Below are positions 19,354 through 62,400 of a stretch of 64,000 bases of DNA, piece after piece. This DNA comes from Thermomonas sp. (GTDB lineage: Bacteria; Pseudomonadota; Gammaproteobacteria; Xanthomonadales; Xanthomonadaceae), in assembly GCF_019104945.1 (NCBI RefSeq), contig NZ_JAHRWW010000005.1:1-64000 (forward strand). Direction: 5' to 3'. Numbering within the stretch: position 1 is the stretch's first letter; each line of letters starts with the position of its first letter. The translations under genes were made by a program, and so were the position numbers. Under the pieces are notes generated by a model. The model worked only from the letters and a program-made list of their open reading frames with translations, was not told the DNA's origin and ran no database searches.

Positions 19354-22245
19354 ATGAAGCGAATGCTCATCAACGCAACGCAGGCAGAAGAACTGCGCGT
19401 GGCCATTGTCGATGGTCAAAACCTGTACGACATCGATATTGAACAGCCCTCCAAAGACAACAAAAAATCCAATATCTACAAAGGCCGCATCACGCGTTTA
19501 GAGCCTTCGCTAGAGGCCGCTTTCGTGGAATACGGCGCAGGCCGTCATGGCTTTTTGCCGCTAAAAGAAATTTCCAAAGATTATTTCCAAGCAGGCACCG
19601 ACCACCACAAATCCACCATCAAAGAACTTTTGCGCGAAGGCCAAGAGGTGGTGGTGCAGGTAGATAAAGAAGAGCGCGGCAATAAGGGCGCAGCGCTCAC
19701 CACGTTCATCTCGCTGGCCGGCCGCTACATGGTGCTAATGCCGAACTCGCCAACCGCGGGTGGCGTTTCGCGTCGCATTGAAGGCGATGACCGCGCCGAG
19801 CTCAAGCGCGCGATGGACTCGCTCAACATTCCCGACGACATGGGCGTGATCATCCGCACCGCTGGCGTGGGCCGCGACGCGGAAGAGCTGCAGTGGGACC
19901 TCGACTACCTGCTTAGTATCTGGCGCGCGATTACCGATGTTGCGCTGACCAAGCCCGCACCGTTTTTGATCTATCAAGAAAGCCGCCTGATCGTGCGCGC
20001 CCTGCGCGACTACATGCGCAGCGACATCGGCGAAATCTTGGTGGACACCCCGGAGATGTACGCCGAAGCGTTGGAGTTTGTTGAGCAGGTGATGCCGCAC
20101 AACAAGCGCAAGCTCAAGCACTACACCGACGACACCCCACTGTTCAACCGCTTCCAGATCGAATCGCAGATCGAATCGGCCTATGAGCGTACCGTACGTC
20201 TGCCCTCCGGTGGCGCGCTGGTGATCGACCAGACCGAAGCGTTGACCGCGATCGACGTGAACTCGGCGCGCGCGACCAAAGGCGGCGATATTGAAGAAAC
20301 CGCGTTCAATACCAACTTAGAAGCCGCCGAAGAAGTAGCACGCCAACTGCGCCTGCGCGATCTTGGCGGGCTAGTGGTGATCGACTTTATCGACATGGCC
20401 AGCAACAAGCACCAGCGCGACGTTGAAAATCGCCTGCAAAACGCACTGAAGTACGACCGTGCGCGCGTGCAGATCGGCCGTATTTCGCGCTTCGGTTTGT
20501 TGGAAATGAGCCGCCAACGCCTGCGCAATAGCTTGGGCGAGGCCAGCCAAATCGTCTGCCCACGTTGCGAAGGCCACGGCCGCATGCGTTCGATCGAATC
20601 GCTGAGCCTATCGATCATTCGTGTCGCCGAAGAACACGCGATGAAGGACAACACCGGGCAAGTGCTGGTGCAGGCCCCGGTGGAAATCGCCAACTTCCTG
20701 CTCAACGAAAAGCGCGCCGCGCTGCGTGAAATCGAACAACGTCACAATGCGCCCATCGTGATCGTGGCGGATGAACAGCTGCATAGCCCGCACTATGAAG
20801 TAACGCGTATCCGCGAAAATGAGATGGGCGAAGAAACAGCGAAGCCCAGCTATCAGCGCGGCACGCCGCGCCGGTTGAATACGATTGCGCTCACCAAAGA
20901 GCAGTTGAACATTCCGCCGCCTGCCGTGACTAAGGTGACACCGGCCAACCCGGCACCGCTGCGCGAGCCCAAGCCGATGCCGCAGGAAACCACGCAAGAA
21001 GCTCCGGCCTTTACGCACCACGCGTCCCCCGCTCAGCCCTCCGGCGTGATCGGCTGGCTGCGCGGCCTGTTTGGTGCGGCTCCTGCTGCAACACCGGCAC
21101 CAGTAGCGCAACCGCGCGACGCTGGCAACGGACGCCGTGATGAGCGCGGCAACCGCCGAAACGACCGTAATAACCGCGACGCACGCCGCGATGACAACCG
21201 TCAGCGCAACGAGCAGCAGCAAAAACAAAAGCAAAAACAACAGCAGCAGCAATCGCAAAAGCAGGAGCGCCCAGAGAAGCAAGAAAAACAGGCGCAACAG
21301 CCCAAGCAAGATCGGCAGGCACAGCCCCAGCAAAAGCAGCAGCAAGAACGCCCTGCGCAGCAGCAAAAGCAGGCGCAGCCGCAGCGTAACGAACAGCCGC
21401 AGCGTCAAGAGCGCCCTGCGCAGCAGCCCAAACAAGAGCGTCAAGAGCGACAGGACAAGTCAGCACCGCAAAAGCAGGCCGCTGTACAACGCCCACAGAG
21501 CGAAGAGATTGCGCCAGTAACCGCGATTGTTGCTACCGCCGCTACAGCAGTGGTGGCTGCACCCATCGCGACGCCCGCACCTGCGCATGACGCTCCTGTT
21601 CAAGATACGCCGCAGGCGCAGCTCACGGCGCATGAAGAGCCGCACTTCATCGTTGACCCTGAAGTGGTGAGCGATGAGCCTTTAGCGCAGACTGACGACA
21701 CGCAGTCCACCGACAGCAACGGCAAGCGCCGTCGCGGCCGTCGCGGTGGGCGTCGTCGTCGTCGTAATGGCAACGAGACCACCGGGCTTGCCGATGACGC
21801 GCTCGAGCATGACGATGCATTGGACACAGTGCTAATTGCTGAATCCACGGCTACTCAGCCCGAGTTCGATTTTGATGACATCACGCCGTTGTCCATCACT
21901 TCAACAGCGCCCACCGCGCAGCCACAAACCGAATCACTCCCCCCAGTGGATAGTGCAACGGCCACCGCTGCTGTTGAAGTCAGTGCTCCAGCTCCAGCTC
22001 CAGCTCCAGCTCCAGCTCCGGCTCCGACTCCGGCCCCACAGGCCGCGGTCAAGCCACCGGTACAGCCGGTACGCGGCCTATTTGAAATGCCGGTCAGCCA
22101 CGGTATCAGCAAGCCGATCGTGCATATCGCCGCGCCTGCACCCGTTGCGCCAACACCGGCACCAACACCTACAGCTGAGGACCCAGAAGCCTCCGCACCG
22201 GCTTTTGAAGAAGAACCCGCCGCCAAGCCCAGCCACGACAGCTAA
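19354..22245 (+). CDS. rne: Ribonuclease E
   Basis: [52 protein letters not shown], Gln/Arg/Pro-rich C-terminal half. Confidence 0.97.
21985..22032 (+). repeat. Hexanucleotide microsatellite (GCTCCA/G)n coding Ala-Pro repeats in rne
   Basis: GCTCCA x5, GCTCCG x2, ACTCCG. Confidence 0.95.
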
Positions 22246-39323: not shown

Positions 39324-41696
39324 TCATGGCCGACTTATCTCCGGTGCGTAGCATAGCCCAGACGCCCGCCCAAGCCTGCGTATTGCATCCCATAGCCTTG
39401 TTTGAAAGACCCTCTGCTCACGCAATTGCAGCCCATTTCCCCCAATCCAGACCCGCAACGCACCGCTGCGCTGGGTATCCACCACTTCAGCCCCGGAGGC
39501 GCACCAGCGTTGCACCACTTGGGGGCGTGGGTGTTTGAATCGATTATCAGCCCCCGACGACACCAGTGCCAGCCGTGCCCCTACAGCCGTTACAAACTCA
39601 GCAGAGGACGAGCCTAGGCTGCCATGGTGGCCAACGACCACCACGTCGCTACGCAGCGCCGCCGGAGCCTCATTCAGCAATTTGCGTTCGACATAATGCC
39701 CGGCATCCCCCGGTAACAGAGCGCTACCGTGGCGTGTTTCCACACGCAAAACGCAGCTCGCTTCATTGCCGAGGTAAGGAAAACCCGCATTGGGATGCAA
39801 GAACTCAAACATGACGCCGTCCCACTCCCAGCGTTTTCCTGCTTCGCAGGTGTCCGTTCCTGGCGATGGGCTGCCTTCCGGAGCAAAAACACGGGGCATT
39901 GGGAACGCCACTGCAACCGACGCTCGCCCTCCGGCGTGATCCATATCGCCATGGCTGACAACGCCCGCATCGAGCCGCGTGACCCCTAATGCATGCAGCG
40001 CAGGCACAACGCTGCGTTCGCCGGCGTCGTAGCCATCCGGTACGGCAGGCCCCATGTCATATAGCAGCGAATGCCGCGCCGTGCGCACCAGCACCGACAG
40101 GCCTTGGCCGACGTCCAGCACCACCAGTTCCACCTCACCTTGCTTCGGCAATCCCCGCGCTGGATAGAGCAGCGGCAACCACAGCAGCAGCGCCAGCGCC
40201 CGCCCCGGAGCCCCTAGCGGCAATAACAACCAAAAAGCGCCAAGAACCGCCAGCGGCAGCGCGTACCACGGCGCTTCCGGCAGCCACAGTAAAGCCAAGG
40301 AGCTATCGGCCAACCAACTCAGAAGCGGCCAAGTTAAATCAAAGCACCACGCCGCCAGCTGCAAACAGGGGGTTCCGAGCCCCGGCAATAGCGCTTCGCC
40401 CAGCACGCCTAATAAGCTCAGCGGAACGACCACAAGGCTCCACCACGGCACCGCCAACAAATTCGCCACTGGCCCAACCGCCGAAGCCTGACCAAACAAC
40501 AGCACAGTGAGCGGCAGCAGCCCCAGCGTGGCCACAGCTTGGGTCGCCATAAGCCCACCTGCCATGTGCTTCAAACTTTTACCCGCCACATCGGGCTGGC
40601 ACCACAGCAGCCACGCCACACCCGCAAAACTTAGCCAAAACCCTGCGCCTAAAATCGCTAATGGATCCATTAGCAGCAGAACGATACAGGCCACCGCCAG
40701 CAAGTCTTCCATCCGCTGATAGCGCCTTGCCGCGCGCGCAAGCACTAAGGCCGCAATCATCACCGCCGTGCGCAGCGTGGGGACTTCCATGCCCGTCAGC
40801 GCGGCATAGCCAAAACCACCTAACAACGCTCCAGCACCCGCCGCAAAGGGGCGCGGCAATACCAAGCAAAGCGACGGCCACAGCCACCAAGCACTCGCCA
40901 AGAACAGCGCACAAAAGCCCGCGACAAGGCCCACGTGTGAGCCAGAAATCGCGATTAAATGGGTCAGCCCTGCAGCGCGCAAACGCGTCCAATCGTGTTG
41001 ATCCAAAAACCGCGTATCACCGAGCGCCAGCGCACGCACATAACGCGATGATGCACGCGGCACGCGCTCTGCAATATGCTCGCTCATCCCCTCGCGCCAA
41101 GCGTTTAACCCACGCGGCGCTTCCAACAAAACAGATTGCTGAGGCTTAAGCACAGCACCGACGGCCGCAATGCGCGCGGCGAAGGCAAATTTTTCTGCGT
41201 CGCTTCCGCCGGGGTTGCGCAAACCACGTGGCGCGCGCAGACGTACTTGCAGGCTCCAACGGCTTCCTGCTTTCAGCCTCGCCCTCGGCTGCGGAGCGTT
41301 TTCATACCAGCTCAGCCGCAGTGTTTGGCCGCGAAGCTCAGCGAGTTCGCTGGGTGCATCATCTACAACAAAATCAAAGCGTGTGCGCCGTGGTTCATGC
41401 ACCGGCAGGCTGCTAATTACACCATGCACTCGCTGCGACTTATTTTGCAGCGCCAATGGCAGTTGACTCTGCAATACAGCGCTAGCGCTGATGCCGGCGA
41501 ACGCCACACCGAGCAGTAAAACGCCGAGCAACCGCCCCCAGCGGGAACGCAGCGCAAGCCCAGCACCAGCCAGTGCAGCACCCAATAACATGAGCCTTGG
41601 TGGAAGCTCCGGTAATAACAGGCACGCGGTGACACCGGCCAATAGTGCTACGGCGCAGGCGGGAGAAAAAAGGGGGAAACGAGAAGCGGCCTCCAT
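39324..41696 (-). CDS. comEC: DNA internalization-related competence protein ComEC/Rec2
   Basis: Competence domain ALALGDTRFLDQHDWTRLRAAGLTHLIAISGSHVGL; metallo-beta-lactamase VVSHGDMDHAGG. Confidence 0.94.
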   Translation of the reverse strand: MEAASRFPLFSPACAVALLAGVTACLLLPELPPRLMLLGAALAGAGLALRSRWGRLLGVLLLGVAFAGISASAVLQSQLPLALQNKSQRVHGVISSLPVHEPRRTRFDFVVDDAPSELAELRGQTLRLSWYENAPQPRARLKAGSRWSLQVRLRAPRGLRNPGGSDAEKFAFAARIAAVGAVLKPQQSVLLEAPRGLNAWREGMSEHIAERVPRASSRYVRALALGDTRFLDQHDWTRLRAAGLTHLIAISGSHVGLVAGFCALFLASAWWLWPSLCLVLPRPFAAGAGALLGGFGYAALTGMEVPTLRTAVMIAALVLARAARRYQRMEDLLAVACIVLLLMDPLAILGAGFWLSFAGVAWLLWCQPDVAGKSLKHMAGGLMATQAVATLGLLPLTVLLFGQASAVGPVANLLAVPWWSLVVVPLSLLGVLGEALLPGLGTPCLQLAAWCFDLTWPLLSWLADSSLALLWLPEAPWYALPLAVLGAFWLLLPLGAPGRALALLLWLPLLYPARGLPKQGEVELVVLDVGQGLSVLVRTARHSLLYDMGPAVPDGYDAGERSVVPALHALGVTRLDAGVVSHGDMDHAGGRASVAVAFPMPRVFAPEGSPSPGTDTCEAGKRWEWDGVMFEFLHPNAGFPYLGNEASCVLRVETRHGSALLPGDAGHYVERKLLNEAPAALRSDVVVVGHHGSLGSSSAEFVTAVGARLALVSSGADNRFKHPRPQVVQRWCASGAEVVDTQRSGALRVWIGGNGLQLREQRVFQTRLWDAIRRLGRASGLCYAPEISRP

Positions 41697-41784
41697 CGAG
41701 GCAGCATCTCAGTATCACACTTGACGCACGATCAGCCGATTAAGCATCGGCGGGTCAGAAATTGCTGATCTGGCCGTTCAAGAC

Positions 41785-42477
41785 CTAAATTTCATCAGCA
41801 CTCAGCGCGTACAAACGCCCTTCACGAAGCTCCAGCACGCGATCGAGCTTGCGCGCCAAGTGGCGGTCATGCGTTACCAGCACAAGGCTCGTGCTCTGCG
41901 AGCGATTAAGCTCCAGCATCTGCGCAAACACCGTGGCAGCGGTTTTCTCATCCAAATTGCCGGTAGGCTCATCGCCAAGCACGCAGGCTGGAGTATTTAC
42001 CAACGCCCGCGCCACTGCAGCGCGCTGCCGCTCACCGCCGGAGAGCTCGCCGGGCTTGTGCATCAGGCGATGACCAAGACCCACCGACTCCAACAACGCT
42101 TGCGCGCGCTTTGCAGCCTCTTGGGTGGCACAGCCTGCCAACAGCACCGGCATCATCACGTTTTCCAGCGCGGTGAACTCGGGTAGTAGATGGTGAAACT
42201 GATACACAAACCCCAACGCACGGTTACGCAGACGGCCGCGCTCCGCATCTGAGAGTGCACTCATCTGCTGCCCGGCCACAAAGACCTCGCCCGACGTAGG
42301 CACATCTAAGCCGCCCAGCAGGTGTAAGAGTGTGCTCTTGCCCGCGCCCGAGGCCCCCAAGATGGCAACAGTTTCACCCGCCTGCACGGCAAAATCCAAA
42401 CCGTCAAATACCGGCGTATGCAGGCTGCCTTCGGCATAGACCTTGCCGAGCTTTTCTGCGCGAATCACTTCACTCAT
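41785..42477 (-). CDS. lolD: Lipoprotein-releasing ABC transporter ATP-binding protein
   Basis: [43 protein letters not shown]. Confidence 0.95.
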
Positions 42478-54581: not shown

Positions 54582-56189
54582 ATGACGGCATTTGATTCTG
54601 ACGTTCTTGTCATTGGCGGGGGGCTGGCCGGTATCGTCACCGCACTGGAATGCCTACGCGGTGGCAGGCGCGTGACATTAGTGGACCGGGACACCCCCGA
54701 GCGCTTCGGCGGATTGGCGCGCTGGGCCTTTGGTGGCATGGCTCTGGTGGGCACGCCGCTACAGGCCAAGCGCAAGATTCCCGACACGCCCGAACGGGCG
54801 CTAGCCGATTGGGTTCGTTTTGGAGAGCTCGATCCCGACGACCATTTCCCGCTGCAGTGGGCGCGCTATTACGTTGAGCACAGCATAAGTGAAGTCTATG
54901 ACTGGCTCACCGCGCACGGCATTGGCTTTATGCCCGCAGTGAACTGGGTAGAACGTGGCCTGCACGGCGACGGCAACAGCCTGCCGCGCTACCATATTGT
55001 TTGGGGCACCGCGCACGCGCTGACGCTGCGCCTTATTGCCGCCTTACACGAGGCGGGCCGCAGCGGCCGCCTAACACTTTTGCACCAGCACCGCGTTACC
55101 GGGCTGGAATATGGCCACAATGGCGTAACTGGCGCAACGGTACTAGACGAAGCCAACAACCGTGAAGTGCAGCTGCATGCCGAATGCGTTGTACTGGCGA
55201 TGGGGGGCTTAAACGGAAGCCATGCCGAAACCGTACGCAACTGGCCGCTGGATCAGGCGCGCCCGCACACCATGCTCAACGGCGCCCACCCCTTTGCCGA
55301 TGGCAAACTGCACCACCTCGCCGCGGGGCTTGGGGCGCAAATTACCCATGCGGGTGATATGTGGAATTACGCGGCGGGCTTCCCCCACCCGAAGCCCCAC
55401 TTCCGCGGCCATGGACTGTCTGCAATTCCCTGCAAGTCGGCCCTTTGGCTTAACCATCGGGGCGAGCGTATCGGGCCGGAACCGTTGGTCACCGGCTTTG
55501 ACACCCACTGGCTTTGCCAACGCGTGGCCGAACAAGAACGGCCGTGGACGTGGCATCTGCTGAACTGGCGTATCGCGCTCAAGGAATTCGCCATCTCCGG
55601 CGCCGAGCACAACCCGCGCATTCGCGATAAACAGTTTTTGCATTTCCTCAAAGACACCTTGTTGGGCAACCAGCGCTTGGTGCAGCAAATGCAGCAGGAG
55701 GTGCCACAGTTTCTTGTGGCAGAGACGCTGCGCGAACTGGCGGAAAAAATGAACGCGCTCACCGGCCAACAAGACGTGAGCCCAGCCACACTGCAAGCCA
55801 CAGCCGATGCATTCGACGCGAATTTCTCCAACGGCTTGCACTTGCATAACGATGCGCAAATTCGCAGCATCTTGCACGCGCGGCAGTGGGGATCAGACCG
55901 GCTACGTACCTGCGCCCCCAAACCATTGCAAGCACCGGGCAGTGGCCCGTTTATCGCCATCCAAATGCAGCTCATTACCCGCAAAAGTTTGGGTGGGCTG
56001 CAAACCGACCTACAAAGCCGCGTCTTGGACGGCAATACCGCTCCCATTCCCGGCCTGTATTGCGTGGGTGAAGCGGCAGGCTTTGGTGGCGGTGGAGCCA
56101 GCGGCAAGCGCTCGTTGGAAGGCACATTCTTGCCCGGCTGCATCCTAACCGCGCGTGCGGCGGCGCGCTCGATTACTACAGGAAACTAG
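54582..56189 (+). CDS. FAD-dependent dehydrogenase (fumarate reductase/ketosteroid dehydrogenase-like)
   Basis: N-terminal VLVIGGGLAGIVTALECLRGGRRVTLVDRD; C-terminal IPGLYCVGEAAGFGGGGASGKRSLEGTFLPGCILTARAAAR. Confidence 0.88.
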   Translation: MTAFDSDVLVIGGGLAGIVTALECLRGGRRVTLVDRDTPERFGGLARWAFGGMALVGTPLQAKRKIPDTPERALADWVRFGELDPDDHFPLQWARYYVEHSISEVYDWLTAHGIGFMPAVNWVERGLHGDGNSLPRYHIVWGTAHALTLRLIAALHEAGRSGRLTLLHQHRVTGLEYGHNGVTGATVLDEANNREVQLHAECVVLAMGGLNGSHAETVRNWPLDQARPHTMLNGAHPFADGKLHHLAAGLGAQITHAGDMWNYAAGFPHPKPHFRGHGLSAIPCKSALWLNHRGERIGPEPLVTGFDTHWLCQRVAEQERPWTWHLLNWRIALKEFAISGAEHNPRIRDKQFLHFLKDTLLGNQRLVQQMQQEVPQFLVAETLRELAEKMNALTGQQDVSPATLQATADAFDANFSNGLHLHNDAQIRSILHARQWGSDRLRTCAPKPLQAPGSGPFIAIQMQLITRKSLGGLQTDLQSRVLDGNTAPIPGLYCVGEAAGFGGGGASGKRSLEGTFLPGCILTARAAARSITTGN

Positions 56190-56192
56190 CGA

Positions 56193-57851
56193 ATGAATGG
56201 CGCACAAGCCCTAATGAAAACGCTGGCCGATGCGGGCGTAGAAGTGTGTTTTTCTAACCCCGGCACCAGTGAAATGCATTTCGTTGCGGCACTTGACTCT
56301 GAGCCGCGTATGCGCGCCGTATTGACCCTGTTTGAGGGCGTGGCCACCGGCGCGGCCGATGGCTACGCACGCATGGCAGGCAAGCCCGCCACCACGTTAC
56401 TGCACCTGGGCTGCGGGCTTGGCAATGGTCTTGCCAACCTGCATAACGCGCGCAAAGGAAAAGTGCCTGTACTTAATATCGTGGGTGATCACGCCACTTA
56501 CCATGTGCAGTACAACGCGCAGTTGCAGTCGGATATTGAAACCGTTGCCCGCAATGTTTCACCCGGCTTCGTGCGTACATCGCAAAGCACCCAAGCGCTG
56601 TGCCAAGACGCCATCGATGCACTCGCCGCGGCGCGCAGCTATCCGCACCAAGTAGCCACATTGATTCTGCCCGCCGATGTGTCTTGGGGCGAAGGTGGCA
56701 CGCCCTGCCCGCCGCACCCCATTACACCGCCGCAAGCAGCGGATGAGGCCACGCTCACAGCGCTTGCCAGCCTGATCCGCAGTGGTGCGAAGGTTGCTTT
56801 TTTGCTCGGCGGGCAGGCGCTCTATGAGCCCGCACTTATGGCCGCAGGCAAACTTGCGGCGCGTTATGGCACTAAGCTGTTTAGCGAAGTGTTCCCAACC
56901 CGCCTGCAACGCGGCGCGGGCCTACCCGTGGTGGAGCGCATCGCCTATTTAGCAGAAATGGCGACGCTCCAGCTCAGTGGAATCGAGCACCTTATTTTGG
57001 TGGATGCTAAATCGCCGGTATCGTTCTTCGCCTATCCCGGCAAACGCAGCGACCTAGTGCCCGATGGCTGCCATGTGCATACGCTTGCCACACCCGAACA
57101 AGACGCGCTACGCAGTCTTCAGCAACTTGTCACGAAACTTGAAGCCGACTCGACCACACCCACACTACAACCTGCCAAACGCCCATCGCGCCCACGCGGC
57201 AAGCTCAGCGCCGCCAAAGTATGCAAAGCGGTTGGGTATTTACTTCCGCACGATGCCGTCGTGATTGACGAAGCCATCACTTCCGGCTTGATGCTCGGCG
57301 TGATGACCCAAGGCGGGCCACGTCACGACCTCATCACACTCACTGGCGGCGCGATCGGCCAAGGCCTGCCGAATGCCGTAGGCGCAGCCATCGCCTGCCC
57401 GCAGCGCCCAGTCATTGCGCTCATTGGCGACGGCACTGCCATGTACACCATTCAAGCCCTGTGGACGATGGCACGCGAGCAGCTCAATGTCACCGCGATT
57501 ATTTTCAATAATGCGAGCTATTCGGTCCTAAATGTGGAGCTAGATCGCGTAGGAGCAGAAGCTCAGGTCGGCCCGAAAGCGAAATCGCAACTCGACCTGC
57601 GCGGCCCGGTGATCAATTTTGCCGAACTCGCGCAGGGCATGGGGGTGAGTGCGCGGCGCGCGGCCACGGCGGAAGCCTTTTGTCTTGCGCTGGAGCACGC
57701 ACTGACTTCACCCGGGCCGCATTTGATCGAAGCGCTAGTGCCAGAATCGCTAGGCCCCGGCAAGCGCCGCGTGCTGCCGTGGCTGCTGCGCTCGCTGCCC
57801 AACTTACCTAAACCGTTAGCAATAGCGCTCAAGCGCAAGCTAGCTCCATAG
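56193..57851 (+). CDS. TPP-dependent enzyme, acetolactate synthase large-subunit-like
   Basis: VEVCFSNPGTSEMHFVAAL; TPP motif LIGDGTAMYTIQALWTMAREQLNVTAIIFNNASY. Confidence 0.9.
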   Translation: MNGAQALMKTLADAGVEVCFSNPGTSEMHFVAALDSEPRMRAVLTLFEGVATGAADGYARMAGKPATTLLHLGCGLGNGLANLHNARKGKVPVLNIVGDHATYHVQYNAQLQSDIETVARNVSPGFVRTSQSTQALCQDAIDALAAARSYPHQVATLILPADVSWGEGGTPCPPHPITPPQAADEATLTALASLIRSGAKVAFLLGGQALYEPALMAAGKLAARYGTKLFSEVFPTRLQRGAGLPVVERIAYLAEMATLQLSGIEHLILVDAKSPVSFFAYPGKRSDLVPDGCHVHTLATPEQDALRSLQQLVTKLEADSTTPTLQPAKRPSRPRGKLSAAKVCKAVGYLLPHDAVVIDEAITSGLMLGVMTQGGPRHDLITLTGGAIGQGLPNAVGAAIACPQRPVIALIGDGTAMYTIQALWTMAREQLNVTAIIFNNASYSVLNVELDRVGAEAQVGPKAKSQLDLRGPVINFAELAQGMGVSARRAATAEAFCLALEHALTSPGPHLIEALVPESLGPGKRRVLPWLLRSLPNLPKPLAIALKRKLAP

Positions 57852-57854
57852 CCT

Positions 57855-58751
57855 TTAATTCAGCAGCACGAACACCGTGACGAGTACCAACTGCGCAACG
57901 GGGTAAAAGCTCGCACGATCGAATAACCGCGCCGCCAAACGGCCGTCAAGGGTGCGGAACAAACGAACGCCCGGCACCAGCAACAGCAATACGCCAATGG
58001 CGAGGTTAGCGATCTGATAAGGCATCCCCAATTGAAGTGGCGACATCGCAGGCAGCCAATAGCTCAGCACCAAGGTTGCAATGATGGCGAGCAGCATCAC
58101 GGTTCCAGAAACGCGCGGCCCGAAGGTCACAGGAATTGTTTTTGCCCCCACACGCTTATCTTCTTCCACATCGTTCCAGTCGGCCGGTACATTTTGCCCA
58201 CCAATCTCCCATGCCATCAGCCACGCCACCATCAGCGCCAAGAGCAATGGGTCAGGGCGTTGCACCACGGTGAGCACCGCCGCCACTGGGCCGAGCGATT
58301 TCACCAAACCACTGACTACCACGCGCCAATAGGTCACTTTAAGCAACATGCAATAACCGGCTTCCAGCACCGGCGCGGCCAGCACCACCAGCACTAGCAG
58401 CGGGTTCAACCAATACGCGCCCACAAGCGCCACCGCATACCAGCAGGCAAACCACACAATGCCGCTGCGCAGACTCAGCTTGCCCTGTGCGATGGGATAG
58501 CGCAGATCCGAAGCCTCTACCGAATAGCCGGGGTTGATCCCCTGTCCCGCAAATTTCTCGCGATCAACTTTCACCCCCAGTAGATCGTTCAGCGCATAGA
58601 TCGCGGTATAGCCCGCCCCTGCGGTGATCAGCGCCACCAGTAGCACCTTCCACTCTGGAAAATGCCCCAGCCACAGCAGCGCCGCAAACCCGGCCATGGC
58701 GATATCCAGCACGCCGTGGGTCGAACGTGAGAGAGCGAGAAATTTGCGCAT
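57855..58751 (-). CDS. UbiA-family membrane prenyltransferase
   Basis: YALNDLLGVKVDREKF and DWNDVEEDKRVGAKTIPVTFG Asp-rich motifs; multiple TM segments. Confidence 0.9.
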   Translation of the reverse strand: MRKFLALSRSTHGVLDIAMAGFAALLWLGHFPEWKVLLVALITAGAGYTAIYALNDLLGVKVDREKFAGQGINPGYSVEASDLRYPIAQGKLSLRSGIVWFACWYAVALVGAYWLNPLLVLVVLAAPVLEAGYCMLLKVTYWRVVVSGLVKSLGPVAAVLTVVQRPDPLLLALMVAWLMAWEIGGQNVPADWNDVEEDKRVGAKTIPVTFGPRVSGTVMLLAIIATLVLSYWLPAMSPLQLGMPYQIANLAIGVLLLLVPGVRLFRTLDGRLAARLFDRASFYPVAQLVLVTVFVLLN

Positions 58752-58753
58752 GC

Positions 58754-59464
58754 TCAGGCCTTTTTAACGAAGCTCATCATGTAGTTCACATCTTCCTTGC
58801 CTTTCGCCACTTTGAACGACTTAAACAGCGGGTTGTACATCAGGCTGGCACTACGAAGATGAGTGAGGCCACTTTGCTGCGACCACGCTTTCATTTCATC
58901 AGGGCGGATCAGTTTGGCGTACTCATGCGTGCCCTTGGGCAGAATGCGCAAGATGTATTCACCGCCAAAAATGGCAAACAGCCACGCTTTGAAATTGCGG
59001 TTGATGGTGGAGAAAATCACATGTCCACCGGGCTTGAGCAGGCGCGTGCAGGCGTCAATCACCGCCGCTGGGTCCGGCACATGCTCCAGCATTTCAAGGC
59101 AGGTCACCACGTCAAAGGTGCCCGCTTCCAGCAGCACCAATTCCTCAACTGTTTGGATGCGGTAGTCGATATTCAAGCCGCTTTTTAATGCGTGTTGCTT
59201 GGCTACTTCCAAGGTCAATTCTGACTGATCAATACCCACGACATTCGCCCCGGCTTTGGCTAGGGTTTCAGTCAAAATACCGCCACCGCAGCCCACGTCC
59301 ACCACGCGTTTACCGCGCACATCGGCATGATCGAAGGTGAACTGGCTGCGCAAAGGATTGATGACGTGCAGCATACCCATCTTGCCGTTTGGATCCCACC
59401 ACAGCTGGGCAACACGGTCGAATTTACTTACTTCTTGACTATCAACGTTCGAAGGCGTGCTCAT
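58754..59464 (-). CDS. ubiG: UbiG-family O-methyltransferase
   Basis: KFDRVAQLWWDPNGKMGMLHVINPLR, VVDVGCGGGILTETLAKAGANVVGID, MLEHVPDPAAVIDAC, FSTINRNFKAWLFAIFGGEYILRILPKGTHEYAK. Confidence 0.82.
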   Translation of the reverse strand: MSTPSNVDSQEVSKFDRVAQLWWDPNGKMGMLHVINPLRSQFTFDHADVRGKRVVDVGCGGGILTETLAKAGANVVGIDQSELTLEVAKQHALKSGLNIDYRIQTVEELVLLEAGTFDVVTCLEMLEHVPDPAAVIDACTRLLKPGGHVIFSTINRNFKAWLFAIFGGEYILRILPKGTHEYAKLIRPDEMKAWSQQSGLTHLRSASLMYNPLFKSFKVAKGKEDVNYMMSFVKKA

Positions 59465-60587
59465 TGTGTGGTGCTATCCATGTAGGTAATTGTGAAAGCG
59501 CAGCGTTCAAATCGCTGCGGCTAATATCGTTGAGGAAGATGCAGCGCCCCATGCCCTGCGGCATCGGCACGCGCTGCTGGCCATTGCGGTGCTTGACGCG
59601 ATCCTGCAGCGCATCCCACATCAGCTGCGCATCCAACACGCTGTAATCCAGCTGAATTTCCAGCGTGCGCACCAGCGCGAACACGCGCGCGGTATCCGCT
59701 TCGCTCAGTAAATTGCGGTGGTAAGCAATGAGCACCGAGACCAGGATATCCAGCAACACTGCCTCGCCGTGCAGCAGGTGGTGCTCGTGGCGAGTTTCAA
59801 GACCGTAGCTAAAGGTATGGCCAAAATCGACCCGGCGCGCCAGCTCTTCTTCGTGTAGATTCGGTGCAAGCTCGGCCAACATGCCACCAATTGCAGCGTC
59901 TAAAATTGCTTCGCCTTCAGCGCTGCTAAAACAGTTGGCAATCGACTGCGCGCCCTGCTCTTCCAATAAGCGCAGCAGCGGTGCGTCACGGATGATCGCC
60001 AGCTTGATAATTTCGCAAACACCATTAAGCAGGTGGCGTTTGGGGAGCGTGGGTAAAAAGCTGCGATCCAGCAATACCGCGCGCGGTGGTTCAAACGCAC
60101 CGAGGCGGTTTTTATTACCGTTGAAATTGATGCCGGCCTTGATGCCCAGCGCCGCGTCGATATAGCCCATCAAGGTGGTGGGTACTTTGATATGCGGCAC
60201 GCCGCGCCGATAGCTGGCCGCAAGAAAACCCACTACATCGGTGAGCACGCCACCGCCAATGGCGATGATCGGCTCATCGCGGCGGTGGATAGGAAATGCG
60301 TCGAGCTTGCGTGCCAAGTCCTGATAGATCTCGATCGTTTTATTTTCTTCCCCGCCGGGAAATACAACGATCTTGGCTTCAATACCGCGCTGCTGAAAAT
60401 ACGCCTCAATGCGATCGCCGTGTAGGCGCATCACATTGCCGTCCACCACCACAAAGCGCCGCCCCTGCGGCCAGCCAAAGCTCATCAGTGTGTCGTTTTC
60501 CGGAGCAAATAGATCCGGTGTTTTCACCACGTCATAGGCAATCGGGCGATTGACGCGCACCTGCCAGCGAGTTTCCGCTTGCGTCAT
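59442..60587 (-). CDS. Sugar-phosphate cyclase superfamily; EEVS-like rather than canonical AroB
   Basis: IIAIGGGVLTDVVGFLAASYRRGVPHIKVPTTLMGYIDAALGIKAGINFNGNKNRLGAFEPPRAVLLDRSFLPTL; RVDFGHTFSYGLE; LLHGEAVLLDI. Confidence 0.85.
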   Translation of the reverse strand: MTQAETRWQVRVNRPIAYDVVKTPDLFAPENDTLMSFGWPQGRRFVVVDGNVMRLHGDRIEAYFQQRGIEAKIVVFPGGEENKTIEIYQDLARKLDAFPIHRRDEPIIAIGGGVLTDVVGFLAASYRRGVPHIKVPTTLMGYIDAALGIKAGINFNGNKNRLGAFEPPRAVLLDRSFLPTLPKRHLLNGVCEIIKLAIIRDAPLLRLLEEQGAQSIANCFSSAEGEAILDAAIGGMLAELAPNLHEEELARRVDFGHTFSYGLETRHEHHLLHGEAVLLDILVSVLIAYHRNLLSEADTARVFALVRTLEIQLDYSVLDAQLMWDALQDRVKHRNGQQRVPMPQGMGRCIFLNDISRSDLNAALSQLPTWIAPHNEHAFER

Positions 60588-61066
60588 GCGGCGTCCAGCC
60601 AGTGATCACGGTGGTCTAAAACCTCGCGGGCAATGGCTTGCGCAGCGCCAAGGCTATGGTTTTGCCAACGCCCGCACTGCTCCACATTCGCATACGGCAC
60701 CGCTTTGGCATCCAGCATGCTTTCTAAAATACGTTCCAACGCGGTGCAGACCACGTCCACCCGGCCTTCATTCTGAAACACCAGATAGAAGCCCGTTTGG
60801 CAGCCCATGATGCCCACCGAAATAAACTGCTCCGGCAGCAGGCGCGAAAAGCCTTCTAGCAAAAAGTGTTCGACCGAGTGCAGCTCGGTATCGGTCATGT
60901 ACTCATCGGCATTGGGATGGCGCACGCGCAGATCAACGCAAAAAATCGCGTCACCGTGTGCGCCAAGGCGGCCCGAGCGCAATTTGATGCTAGGGGCCTT
61001 GAGGCGGCGATGATCCATCTCGCCCACTAGATCGAGATTCCAGCCCAGTGCTTTGATATCCGGCAT
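60584..61066 (-). CDS. Divergent LuxS-family (S-ribosylhomocysteine lyase-like) metalloenzyme
   Basis: MDHRRLKAPSIKL, VDLRV, HSVEH (metal ligands), IMGCQTGFYLVF (catalytic Cys), VEQCG (third ligand). Confidence 0.82.
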   Translation of the reverse strand: MPDIKALGWNLDLVGEMDHRRLKAPSIKLRSGRLGAHGDAIFCVDLRVRHPNADEYMTDTELHSVEHFLLEGFSRLLPEQFISVGIMGCQTGFYLVFQNEGRVDVVCTALERILESMLDAKAVPYANVEQCGRWQNHSLGAAQAIAREVLDHRDHWLDAA

Positions 61067-61075
61067 GATGGCTCC

Positions 61076-62323
61076 TTAAGGGGTTGCAAGAAACGGCATG
61101 AGATGGCGATAACTGTCGTCCAGCGCCTTCTGCCAGCCTTCTACGTGGTGATACAGCTCGATCGAGCCGTAGCCGCTAAATCCGTTCTCAGTGAGTGCTT
61201 TGAAACTTGCGGCAAAATCCAGCGTGCCTTCCCCTGGGATTTCGTGAAAGTGCACGATACCGGTCAAGGTATTGGCCACCATCTTGTCCACCAGCGGCGC
61301 GCGCTTGGCACCACGCAGATAGCCTGCAATGGGGCGCGCACGTTCCAGCACGTCATAGCTCAGCCCCGGCATGGAAATGAGATAGGTGAAAATTTCATCG
61401 TCCCGCGGCGAGCTACCTGCATACAGGCTGCGGTAGTCGATCAGTTGCAAATCTTGCTGCACATTCGCCTGCTGCAGCAACGCATCGACCCGCTGCCTGC
61501 GTGTAAGCGATAACGTGCCTTCGTAAAAATAAATCGGGTGCTTGCGATCCAGCAGCAAAAACTCTGCGTTATCCGGAAAATGCACCAGTACGCTGGCAAA
61601 GCCGAGGTCTGGCGCAAGTTCGGGGTGGTCTTGCACAATTTTCAGGTTATAGCCTTCACGCGCATCGGAGATATGTAAATACTTCGCGTGCGGTGCCGCT
61701 TGGGCCAAAGCGTCAACGTAATTGTGTTCAGAACAATATGCGTGGCAGATGTCGATATGCAGTTTGAACTTGGGTGAATCCACCAACCGCATCAGCTCAA
61801 GCCCCTGCGCCATGGTTTCGATATACATGCCCGGCTCGGGTTCGATGAGCAATGTAATGTCTTCATCGTCGCGGATTTCGCGCAGGCATTCGTGGATCGA
61901 ATCCACTAACAATTCACTAGGGTTTACCTCGGGGTGCGCCACATGGTCATCGCGCACGAAACCGCTGCCGAAGGTGACAAGATTCGTTCCCAACTGGCGC
62001 GCAACATGGATCCCACGCTTTACAAGATCGATCCTGCGCTTGCGCCCAGCTTTTTCCAGCGCCATCAGTGACGGCTCATGCGGGCGGTGTGGATCAAAGA
62101 AATGCGAGGCCGTAGCCACGCAGGCGGCGTTTACTCGCCGCGCATCAAGGCGCTTTTTGACTTCCGCTAAATAAGCGTCGTCGATATTGAACGGGTTGAA
62201 CTGGTCGCGGTGGAAGGAAATCTCTACCCCGGCATAGCCCGCCCGATCGACCGCATCGATGGCGTCTAAAAAATCAAGATTGGTCAACCCGAAGGTGCTG
62301 TAGCTGAGCTGGATCGCGCCCAT
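61076..62323 (-). CDS. TIM-barrel sugar-phosphate isomerase/epimerase-like protein (xylose isomerase / AP endonuclease 2 fold)
   Basis: IQLSYSTFGLTNLDFLDAIDAVDRAGYAGVEISFH; LLIEPEPGMYIE; KFKLHIDICHAYC; IPGEGTLDFAASFKALTENGFSGYGSIEL. Confidence 0.82.
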   Translation of the reverse strand: MGAIQLSYSTFGLTNLDFLDAIDAVDRAGYAGVEISFHRDQFNPFNIDDAYLAEVKKRLDARRVNAACVATASHFFDPHRPHEPSLMALEKAGRKRRIDLVKRGIHVARQLGTNLVTFGSGFVRDDHVAHPEVNPSELLVDSIHECLREIRDDEDITLLIEPEPGMYIETMAQGLELMRLVDSPKFKLHIDICHAYCSEHNYVDALAQAAPHAKYLHISDAREGYNLKIVQDHPELAPDLGFASVLVHFPDNAEFLLLDRKHPIYFYEGTLSLTRRQRVDALLQQANVQQDLQLIDYRSLYAGSSPRDDEIFTYLISMPGLSYDVLERARPIAGYLRGAKRAPLVDKMVANTLTGIVHFHEIPGEGTLDFAASFKALTENGFSGYGSIELYHHVEGWQKALDDSYRHLMPFLATP

Positions 62324-62400
62324 GGCCAGTTCCGAAAAAAACTTGCCATTTTATACCCCGCCCCAGCGCCGCATTATCTGATACAGATCAAGTCCTGTAC

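Follow-up and report, generated by a model that had tools for sequence, protein, structure and literature searches.

To our knowledge, every described route to ubiquinone starts from 4-hydroxybenzoate, and among bacteria the quinone is essentially confined to Pseudomonadota. The canonical pathway (UbiCA, UbiD/X, UbiG, UbiE and UbiH/I/F, with the O2-independent UbiT/U/V) is one of the described systems closest to the five-gene operon considered here, which occupies positions 57855-62323 of the minus strand in the window, the whole 64,000-nucleotide stretch of contig NZ_JAHRWW010000005.1 of Thermomonas sp. that was analysed. The two systems share a UbiG-family O-methyltransferase and a UbiA-superfamily prenyltransferase, their products would be the same or nearly the same, and the FNR-type control suggested for the operon resembles an anoxic role. 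In contrast to the canonical pathway, the ring is proposed to derive from a C7 sugar through a 2-epi-5-epi-valiolone synthase (EEVS) and not from chorismate and 4-hydroxybenzoate. The operon contains no hydroxylases, decarboxylase or C-methyltransferase, it includes a LuxS-like enzyme and a TIM barrel protein, and its UbiA-like protein belongs to another branch.

Other described systems resemble the operon in part. Its cyclase matches the fingerprint of the EEVS enzymes of the validamycin, acarbose and gadusol pathways, and gadusol synthesis likewise pairs an EEVS with an O-methyltransferase (PMC4426668); unlike these pathways, however, the operon has no kinase, aminotransferase or MT-Ox, but has a membrane prenyltransferase and a UbiG homologue, with a proposed aromatisation to a quinol. 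The ebo/edb cluster likewise combines a sugar phosphate cyclase with UbiA-like and TIM barrel proteins, whereas the operon families differ from it by model tests and the LuxS-like and UbiG genes are present. With LuxS (S-ribosylhomocysteine lyase) the second operon protein shares the fold family and the metal site, but the operon proteins form a separate group, in which the substrate-tail residues are replaced. The futalosine menaquinone and methyl-plastoquinone pathways, whose enzymes and ring precursors are unrelated, are precedents for independent quinone routes that were discovered late. Finally, a survey from 2026 that covered 26,264 genomes noted many lineages, including Chloroflexota, with seemingly no quinone pathway, and pointed out that undiscovered quinones may exist (PMC13386864); the operon is a concrete five-gene candidate for this gap.

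We consider it probable that the operon is an alternative route, independent of O2 and of 4-hydroxybenzoate, by which the ubiquinone head group, or that of a very close benzoquinone, is made. The evidence that carries this reading is the loss of canonical genes in genomes with the operon. The canonical steps were profiled through UbiG, UbiA, UbiH/I/F and UbiE, the alternative pathways through MenD and MqnC, and complex I through NuoD. The search for UbiG returned both the canonical and the operon copy in some carriers and the operon copy alone in others. Within the genus, all 18 non-carriers have one canonical UbiG and two carriers (G000 and G018) have both copies, whereas only the operon copy is found in the remaining five (G006, G011, G016, G019 and G021); canonical UbiG is thus lost in 5/7 carriers versus 0/18 non-carriers (Fisher p 4e-4), these five probably forming one clade. 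The UbiA of the same five genomes scores 153-180 bits versus about 350-365 bits elsewhere in the genus, its NDxxDxxxD motif is gone, and where its position was checked it stands at the ancestral location, beside bioB/bioF or comF-like genes; the non-carrier G014, which is 80% complete, has no UbiA match. No UbiH/I/F hydroxylase, MenD or MqnC was found in the five operon-only genomes, NuoD is present there at full score, and their completeness is rated 99% for four and 95% for the fifth. UbiE had been predicted to be dispensable from the head-group arithmetic given below before it was searched for; it was found neither in the five nor in the carriers G110, G111, G112 and G123 (proteobacterial) and G107 (Chloroflexota).

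A second lineage with a similar pattern is the gamma proteobacterium HdN1, whose complete genome contains only the operon UbiG and two copies of NuoD; no UbiA, hydroxylases, MenD or MqnC were found in it. Its ubiE is retained beside DUF971/hslU and is followed directly by hisE and the tat genes (record position 2889000-2898000), so that ubiJ and ubiB are missing from this junction, which has no room for them. E. coli cannot make ubiquinone without ubiA, ubiE and ubiG, whether O2 is present or not (PMC6747719). Since complex I is kept, canonical genes are lost and the menaquinone genes are absent, the operon-only organisms have a quinone-dependent respiratory complex but, apart from the operon, no recognisable route to a quinone. 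A replacement of ubiquinone by menaquinone of the futalosine or Men type was ruled out by the absence of both MqnC and MenD. The initial annotation had left the cyclitol/prenyl product unspecified; the co-occurrence of the operon with the loss of the canonical pathway makes a ubiquinone-type respiratory quinone the most likely one. The same annotation had held that a UbiG which is the sole ubiquinone methylase and unconnected with its neighbours would speak against its reading. In six genomes the operon UbiG is literally the sole copy, but most of the testable remainder of the canonical pathway is missing there as well, and the tie to the neighbouring genes is thereby strengthened.

The proposed route would begin with the conversion of sedoheptulose-7-phosphate into 2-epi-5-epi-valiolone (EEV, C7H12O6) by the EEVS-type cyclase. 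In EEV, ring carbons C1 to C4 bear oxygen, C5 bears both a hydroxymethyl and a hydroxyl group, and C6 is a CH2; in ubiquinone, C1 to C4 likewise bear oxygen, C5 bears the methyl and C6 the prenyl group. Subtraction of two waters from EEV gives, without oxidation or reduction, C7H8O4, the formula of 5-methylbenzene-1,2,3,4-tetrol, in which the oxygens and the methyl group are placed exactly as in ubiquinone. The TIM barrel and LuxS-like enzymes would remove these waters in a redox-neutral manner, one of them as the tertiary C5 hydroxyl, the other by a LuxS-type shift of the carbonyl along the ring and subsequent beta-elimination of the exocyclic CH2 hydroxyl, which would leave a methyl group. 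The known chemistry of LuxS consists of carbonyl shifts by enolisation and a beta-elimination that turns CH2-S-homocysteine into the CH3 of 4,5-dihydroxy-2,3-pentanedione. The resulting 5-methylbenzene-1,2,3,4-tetrol would be prenylated by the UbiA-like enzyme at C6, the sole free ring position, and O-methylated at the C2 and C3 hydroxyls by the UbiG homologue to give ubiquinol; canonical UbiG performs both O-methylations. UbiC, UbiD/X, UbiE and all hydroxylases would be unnecessary, because the ring oxygens and the methyl group would come from the sugar. This scheme uses each operon gene and explains each canonical gene tested as lost, and it agrees with the initial suggestion that a C7 cyclitol ring is built, methylated and prenylated, with the LuxS homologue performing an isomerisation or beta-elimination. 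The reactions may follow another order, and the TIM barrel and LuxS-like enzymes may exchange roles. Where both routes coexist in a genome, the operon would probably serve anoxic conditions, as the FNR-type box described below suggests, and elsewhere it would be the sole remaining quinone pathway.

We hold this chemistry and the exact product with moderate confidence, the operon itself and the gene losses being direct observations. The far-reaching version, according to which authentic ubiquinone has a second route, with the ring, all four oxygens and the methyl group drawn from sedoheptulose-7-phosphate by way of a C7 cyclitol and a LuxS put to new use, without O2 or the shikimate pathway, spread to Chloroflexota and Mycobacterium and wholly displacing the canonical pathway in some Gammaproteobacteria, is in our opinion nearly evenly poised, inclining slightly to the side of doubt. 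If true, it would mean a new way from sugar to an aromatic ring that bypasses the shikimate pathway and oxygen; it would also add a reaction type to those of the LuxS fold, provide a compact gene cassette for producing coenzyme Q and alter the prediction of quinones from genomes.

The cyclase at the start of the route has as its best solved relative ValA, an EEVS (4p53, 314 bits). The EEVS fingerprint and metal-ligand residues, which reportedly go back to Kean 2014, are taken here to be Leu267, Asp281 and His360 (ValA numbering), and the corresponding alignment columns were computed. At these columns the operon cyclases have L in 72/73, D in 73/73 and H in 73/73 sequences, whereas DDGS has E, A and T. 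In the phylogenetic tree the operon cyclase groups with the EEVS/DDGS sedoheptulose-7-phosphate cyclases (support 99/99), apart from AroB and EboD. Operon cyclases score 149-237 bits on the aroB model, versus a cut-off of 305, and a separate true AroB was identified elsewhere in 13/13 carrier genomes tested, which rules out the cyclase as the sole AroB. Thus, as the initial annotation had anticipated, the cyclase is by its alignment and phylogeny of the EEVS type and not an AroB, with a predicted activity on sedoheptulose-7-phosphate.

For the methyltransferase, UbiG is the best solved relative (4kdc, 261 bits). The operon proteins are 43-48% identical to canonical UbiG, retain nearly all its invariant residues and form a clade of their own in the UbiG family (support 100/99), the copies from Mycobacterium and Chloroflexota included; judged by sequence, the enzyme is a true member of that family. 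The UbiA-like protein is more divergent, with 34 bits on the canonical UbiA model TIGR01474 versus a cut-off of 275. Its family conserves the motifs NDxxGxxxDxxK and DWNDxxxD, with NDxxG where the canonical protein has NDxxD, so that the NDxxDxxxD motif is missing. The AlphaFold model of the TIM barrel protein has a predicted local distance difference test score of 90, and its nearest folds are UlaE, ketose-3-epimerases, AsbF (3-dehydroshikimate dehydratase), IolI and IolE. All of these act beside the carbonyl of a sugar or keto-cyclitol, and we propose the protein as a candidate keto-cyclitol dehydratase or isomerase.

A number of points weigh against a ubiquinone route. The Thermomonas losses probably go back to a single event, and the degenerate UbiA proteins, which share a conserved new motif, may still have a function. 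HdN1 keeps UbiE, which the proposed route does not need; G000, G018, Rhodanobacter and Comamonas keep the canonical genes as well, so that the operon is redundant there, and the Mycobacterium carriers also have MenD. Most genomes with the operon are metagenome-assembled genomes, and a literature search found no quinone measurement for any operon-only organism, HdN1 included. A retained CH2OH or a single O-methylation would give a different quinone, and what is made could be close to ubiquinone but not identical with it. Indeed, the operon could make a different ubiquinone-like redox lipid, with the hydroxymethyl group kept or with one methoxy group, which replaces ubiquinone in the operon-only genomes and supplements it elsewhere. 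The losses of canonical genes would speak for such a lipid as well, the divergent prenyltransferase without NDxxD would fit, the exact TIM barrel and LuxS-like steps cannot be assigned, and Chloroflexota and Mycobacterium are not known as ubiquinone makers (PMC13386864). Nevertheless, we regard such a lipid as rather unlikely: complex I is kept, and the remaining members of the genus have the canonical ubiquinone genes; the loss of two waters from EEV yields the ubiquinone pattern with no extra assumptions, and the methyltransferase is a close relative of an enzyme that performs both O-methylations in known pathways.

The spread of the operon bears on a further alternative. The LuxS-like protein was found in 7/25 genomes of the genus and in 0/75 other genomes of the same family and order. 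The order and strand of the five genes are kept in all seven carriers of the genus (the window genome and six others). In the window the genes are separated by +9, -4, -23 and +2 bp in the direction of transcription. All five open reading frames lie where the initial annotation had placed them, and its spacings and family assignments agree with the coordinates and with Pfam/NCBIfam (Table 1). When named genomes were scanned once with an alignment of seven LuxS-like sequences, 75 distinct loci were recovered, whose LuxS-like proteins are at least 51% identical to that of the window. The order TIM barrel, LuxS-like, cyclase, UbiG, UbiA-like is present in 75/75 of these named loci, contig-end truncations aside, so that the proposal of one conserved and apparently undescribed operon, with its grouping kept in relatives, has held up; such a grouping is far beyond chance. 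The carriers include Thermomonas, Rhodanobacter and Dokdonella (Xanthomonadales), Comamonas and Castellaniella (Burkholderiales) and HdN1 and, outside Pseudomonadota, many Anaerolineae (Chloroflexota), Mycobacterium simulans, szulgai and angelicum and one metagenome-assembled genome of Eremiobacterota, that is, four phyla. Mycobacterium is nested in Chloroflexota in the methyltransferase tree, which indicates that the operon was exchanged between phyla; a comparison of the UbiA-like protein with plasmids gave no match. In the Chloroflexota carriers G106, G107 and G108 we observed complex I homologues and no MenD or MqnC above the cut-off, and for these three the operon may represent the sole route to a quinone.

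This distribution, patchy within the genus, would also suit a prenylated and methylated C7-cyclitol or phenolic secondary metabolite without a respiratory role, with the losses of quinone genes being coincidental or the quinones scavenged; moreover, the known EEVS enzymes otherwise belong to secondary metabolism, and carriers with both pathways exist. We consider this improbable, since the joint loss of UbiA, UbiG and the hydroxylases is confined to carriers and is seen in two separate lineages, for one of which the genome is complete, with retention of complex I, and since one fixed five-gene core extends over four phyla, unlike the variable clusters of secondary metabolism.

A relation to ebo, which the initial annotation had brought up, was not borne out. 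A divergent metabolite-export cluster of this kind, with the LuxS-like and UbiG genes in place of EboA/B/F, would share with ebo the TIM barrel, UbiA-like and cyclase gene types (PMC5133447). However, the window TIM barrel protein gave no match to the EboE model NF035939 at E 0.01, whereas the Deinococcus EboE control scored 466 bits. The window UbiA-like protein did not match the EboC model NF035940, a weaker test in which Deinococcus EboC itself scores only 96 bits, and on the PRK06203 model the window cyclase has 215 bits (cut-off 333) versus 585 for EboD, in line with its position in the tree. None of EboA/EboG, EboB (TatD) and EboF is in the five-gene core, and none was recognised among the recurring clustered neighbour open reading frames. 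An ebo-type cluster is thus already largely refuted and very improbable.

The LuxS-like family, which among the loci recovered occurs solely inside the operon, has H54, E57, H58, C84 and C126, and also H11 and R39, invariant in 74/74 sequences; the metal site HxxEH plus Cys and the equivalents of the acid/base residues Glu57 and Cys84 are thus kept throughout. The substrate-tail residues F7, R65, D78, S80 and P81, and also A61, are replaced: R65 is mostly Q, D78 is S or G and F7 is absent, whereas 7-8/8 canonical LuxS proteins keep these residues. Conserved residues of catalysis together with replaced substrate contacts form the pattern expected for the same chemistry on a different substrate, and the LuxS homologue is proposed as a candidate carbonyl-shifting eliminase that converts CH2OH into CH3. 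That it is instead an ordinary S-ribosylhomocysteine lyase, recycling S-adenosylhomocysteine from the neighbouring methyltransferase, is hardly credible despite the kept catalytic residues and the identity of about 27-36% to canonical LuxS, because the methylthioadenosine/S-adenosylhomocysteine nucleosidase (Pfs/MtnN) that makes its substrate is above the cut-off in only 3/13 carriers, the window genome not among them, and because Arg65 and Asp78, which bind the substrate in LuxS where Glu57 also has its described role (PMC2656534), are replaced along with F7.

Table 1. Genes of the operon and putative promoter elements in the window
Feature	Coordinates	Strand	Evidence
Gene 1, xylose-isomerase-like TIM barrel protein, 415 aa	61076..62323	-	AP_endonuc_2 5e-36 (Pfam/NCBIfam)
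Gene 2, LuxS-like metalloenzyme, 160 aa	60584..61066	-	LuxS 5e-30
Gene 3, sugar phosphate cyclase, predicted EEVS, 381 aa	59442..60587	-	DHQ_synthase 3e-35, under aroB cut-off
Gene 4, UbiG-family O-methyltransferase, 236 aa	58754..59464	-	TIGR01983 259 bits, cut-off 103
Gene 5, divergent UbiA-superfamily membrane prenyltransferase, 298 aa	57855..58751	-	UbiA 1.5e-27
FNR/ANR-type box TTGATctgtATCAg, upstream of gene 1	62378..62391	-	9/10 specified consensus bases
Possible -10 element TATAAA	62350..62355	-	consensus match only

The FNR/ANR-type box upstream of the operon (Table 1) has its centre 32 bp from that of the possible -10 element, which is the spacing of class II FNR promoters. Boxes matching at least 9/10 positions occur in 5/58 upstream regions versus 6/341 interior control windows (Fisher p 0.013), a modest enrichment. 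No FNR-type box was found upstream of the operon-only Thermomonas loci, and promoters free of the box fit a constitutive need in these genomes. Regulators of the CRP/FNR family are encoded within a few kb of the operon in nine loci (L025, L028, L029, L030, L034, L039, L044, L066 and L081), and those that were read have an FNR-like cysteine cluster.

Among other recurring neighbours, a polyprenyl diphosphate synthase gene adjoins the operon in HdN1, Comamonas and Mycobacterium. In M. szulgai, simulans and angelicum (L057, L063 and L079) the operon directly follows a three-gene ABC transporter/lipocalin (CrtC-like) set and precedes the polyprenyl synthase gene. This setting presumably corresponds to the Rv0986-Rv0988/grcC2 region in M. 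tuberculosis, which would lack the operon. Our literature search found no paper that discusses the five genes or describes the proposed route; a paper on a nitrite reductase of Chloroflexi gives the names of all five among the neighbouring genes tabulated in its appendix, but does not remark on them (PMC8756737). The link to denitrification suggested by a nirS neighbour in Chloroflexota (PMC8756737) is unsupported in the genus, where NirS was found in 0/7 carriers versus 4/18 non-carriers; NirK was not tested.

The degenerate UbiA proteins of the operon-only genomes (L110, L111, L112, L109:8275-9099 and L113) have a common new motif, IDxYFGAxxDAxxGRIARFPP, whose conservation indicates that selection acts on them; they may have taken on another function. 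In the window, a gene for an E1-type dehydrogenase lies upstream of the operon on the same strand. Downstream, and convergent with the operon, is a two-gene unit at 54582-57851 of the plus strand, which encodes a PRK07586-type thiamine pyrophosphate enzyme and a PRK12834-type flavin adenine dinucleotide-binding dehydrogenase. Finally, the regions 20000-22000 and 40000-42000 of the window display a strong AT skew (0.27-0.28) over a low background.

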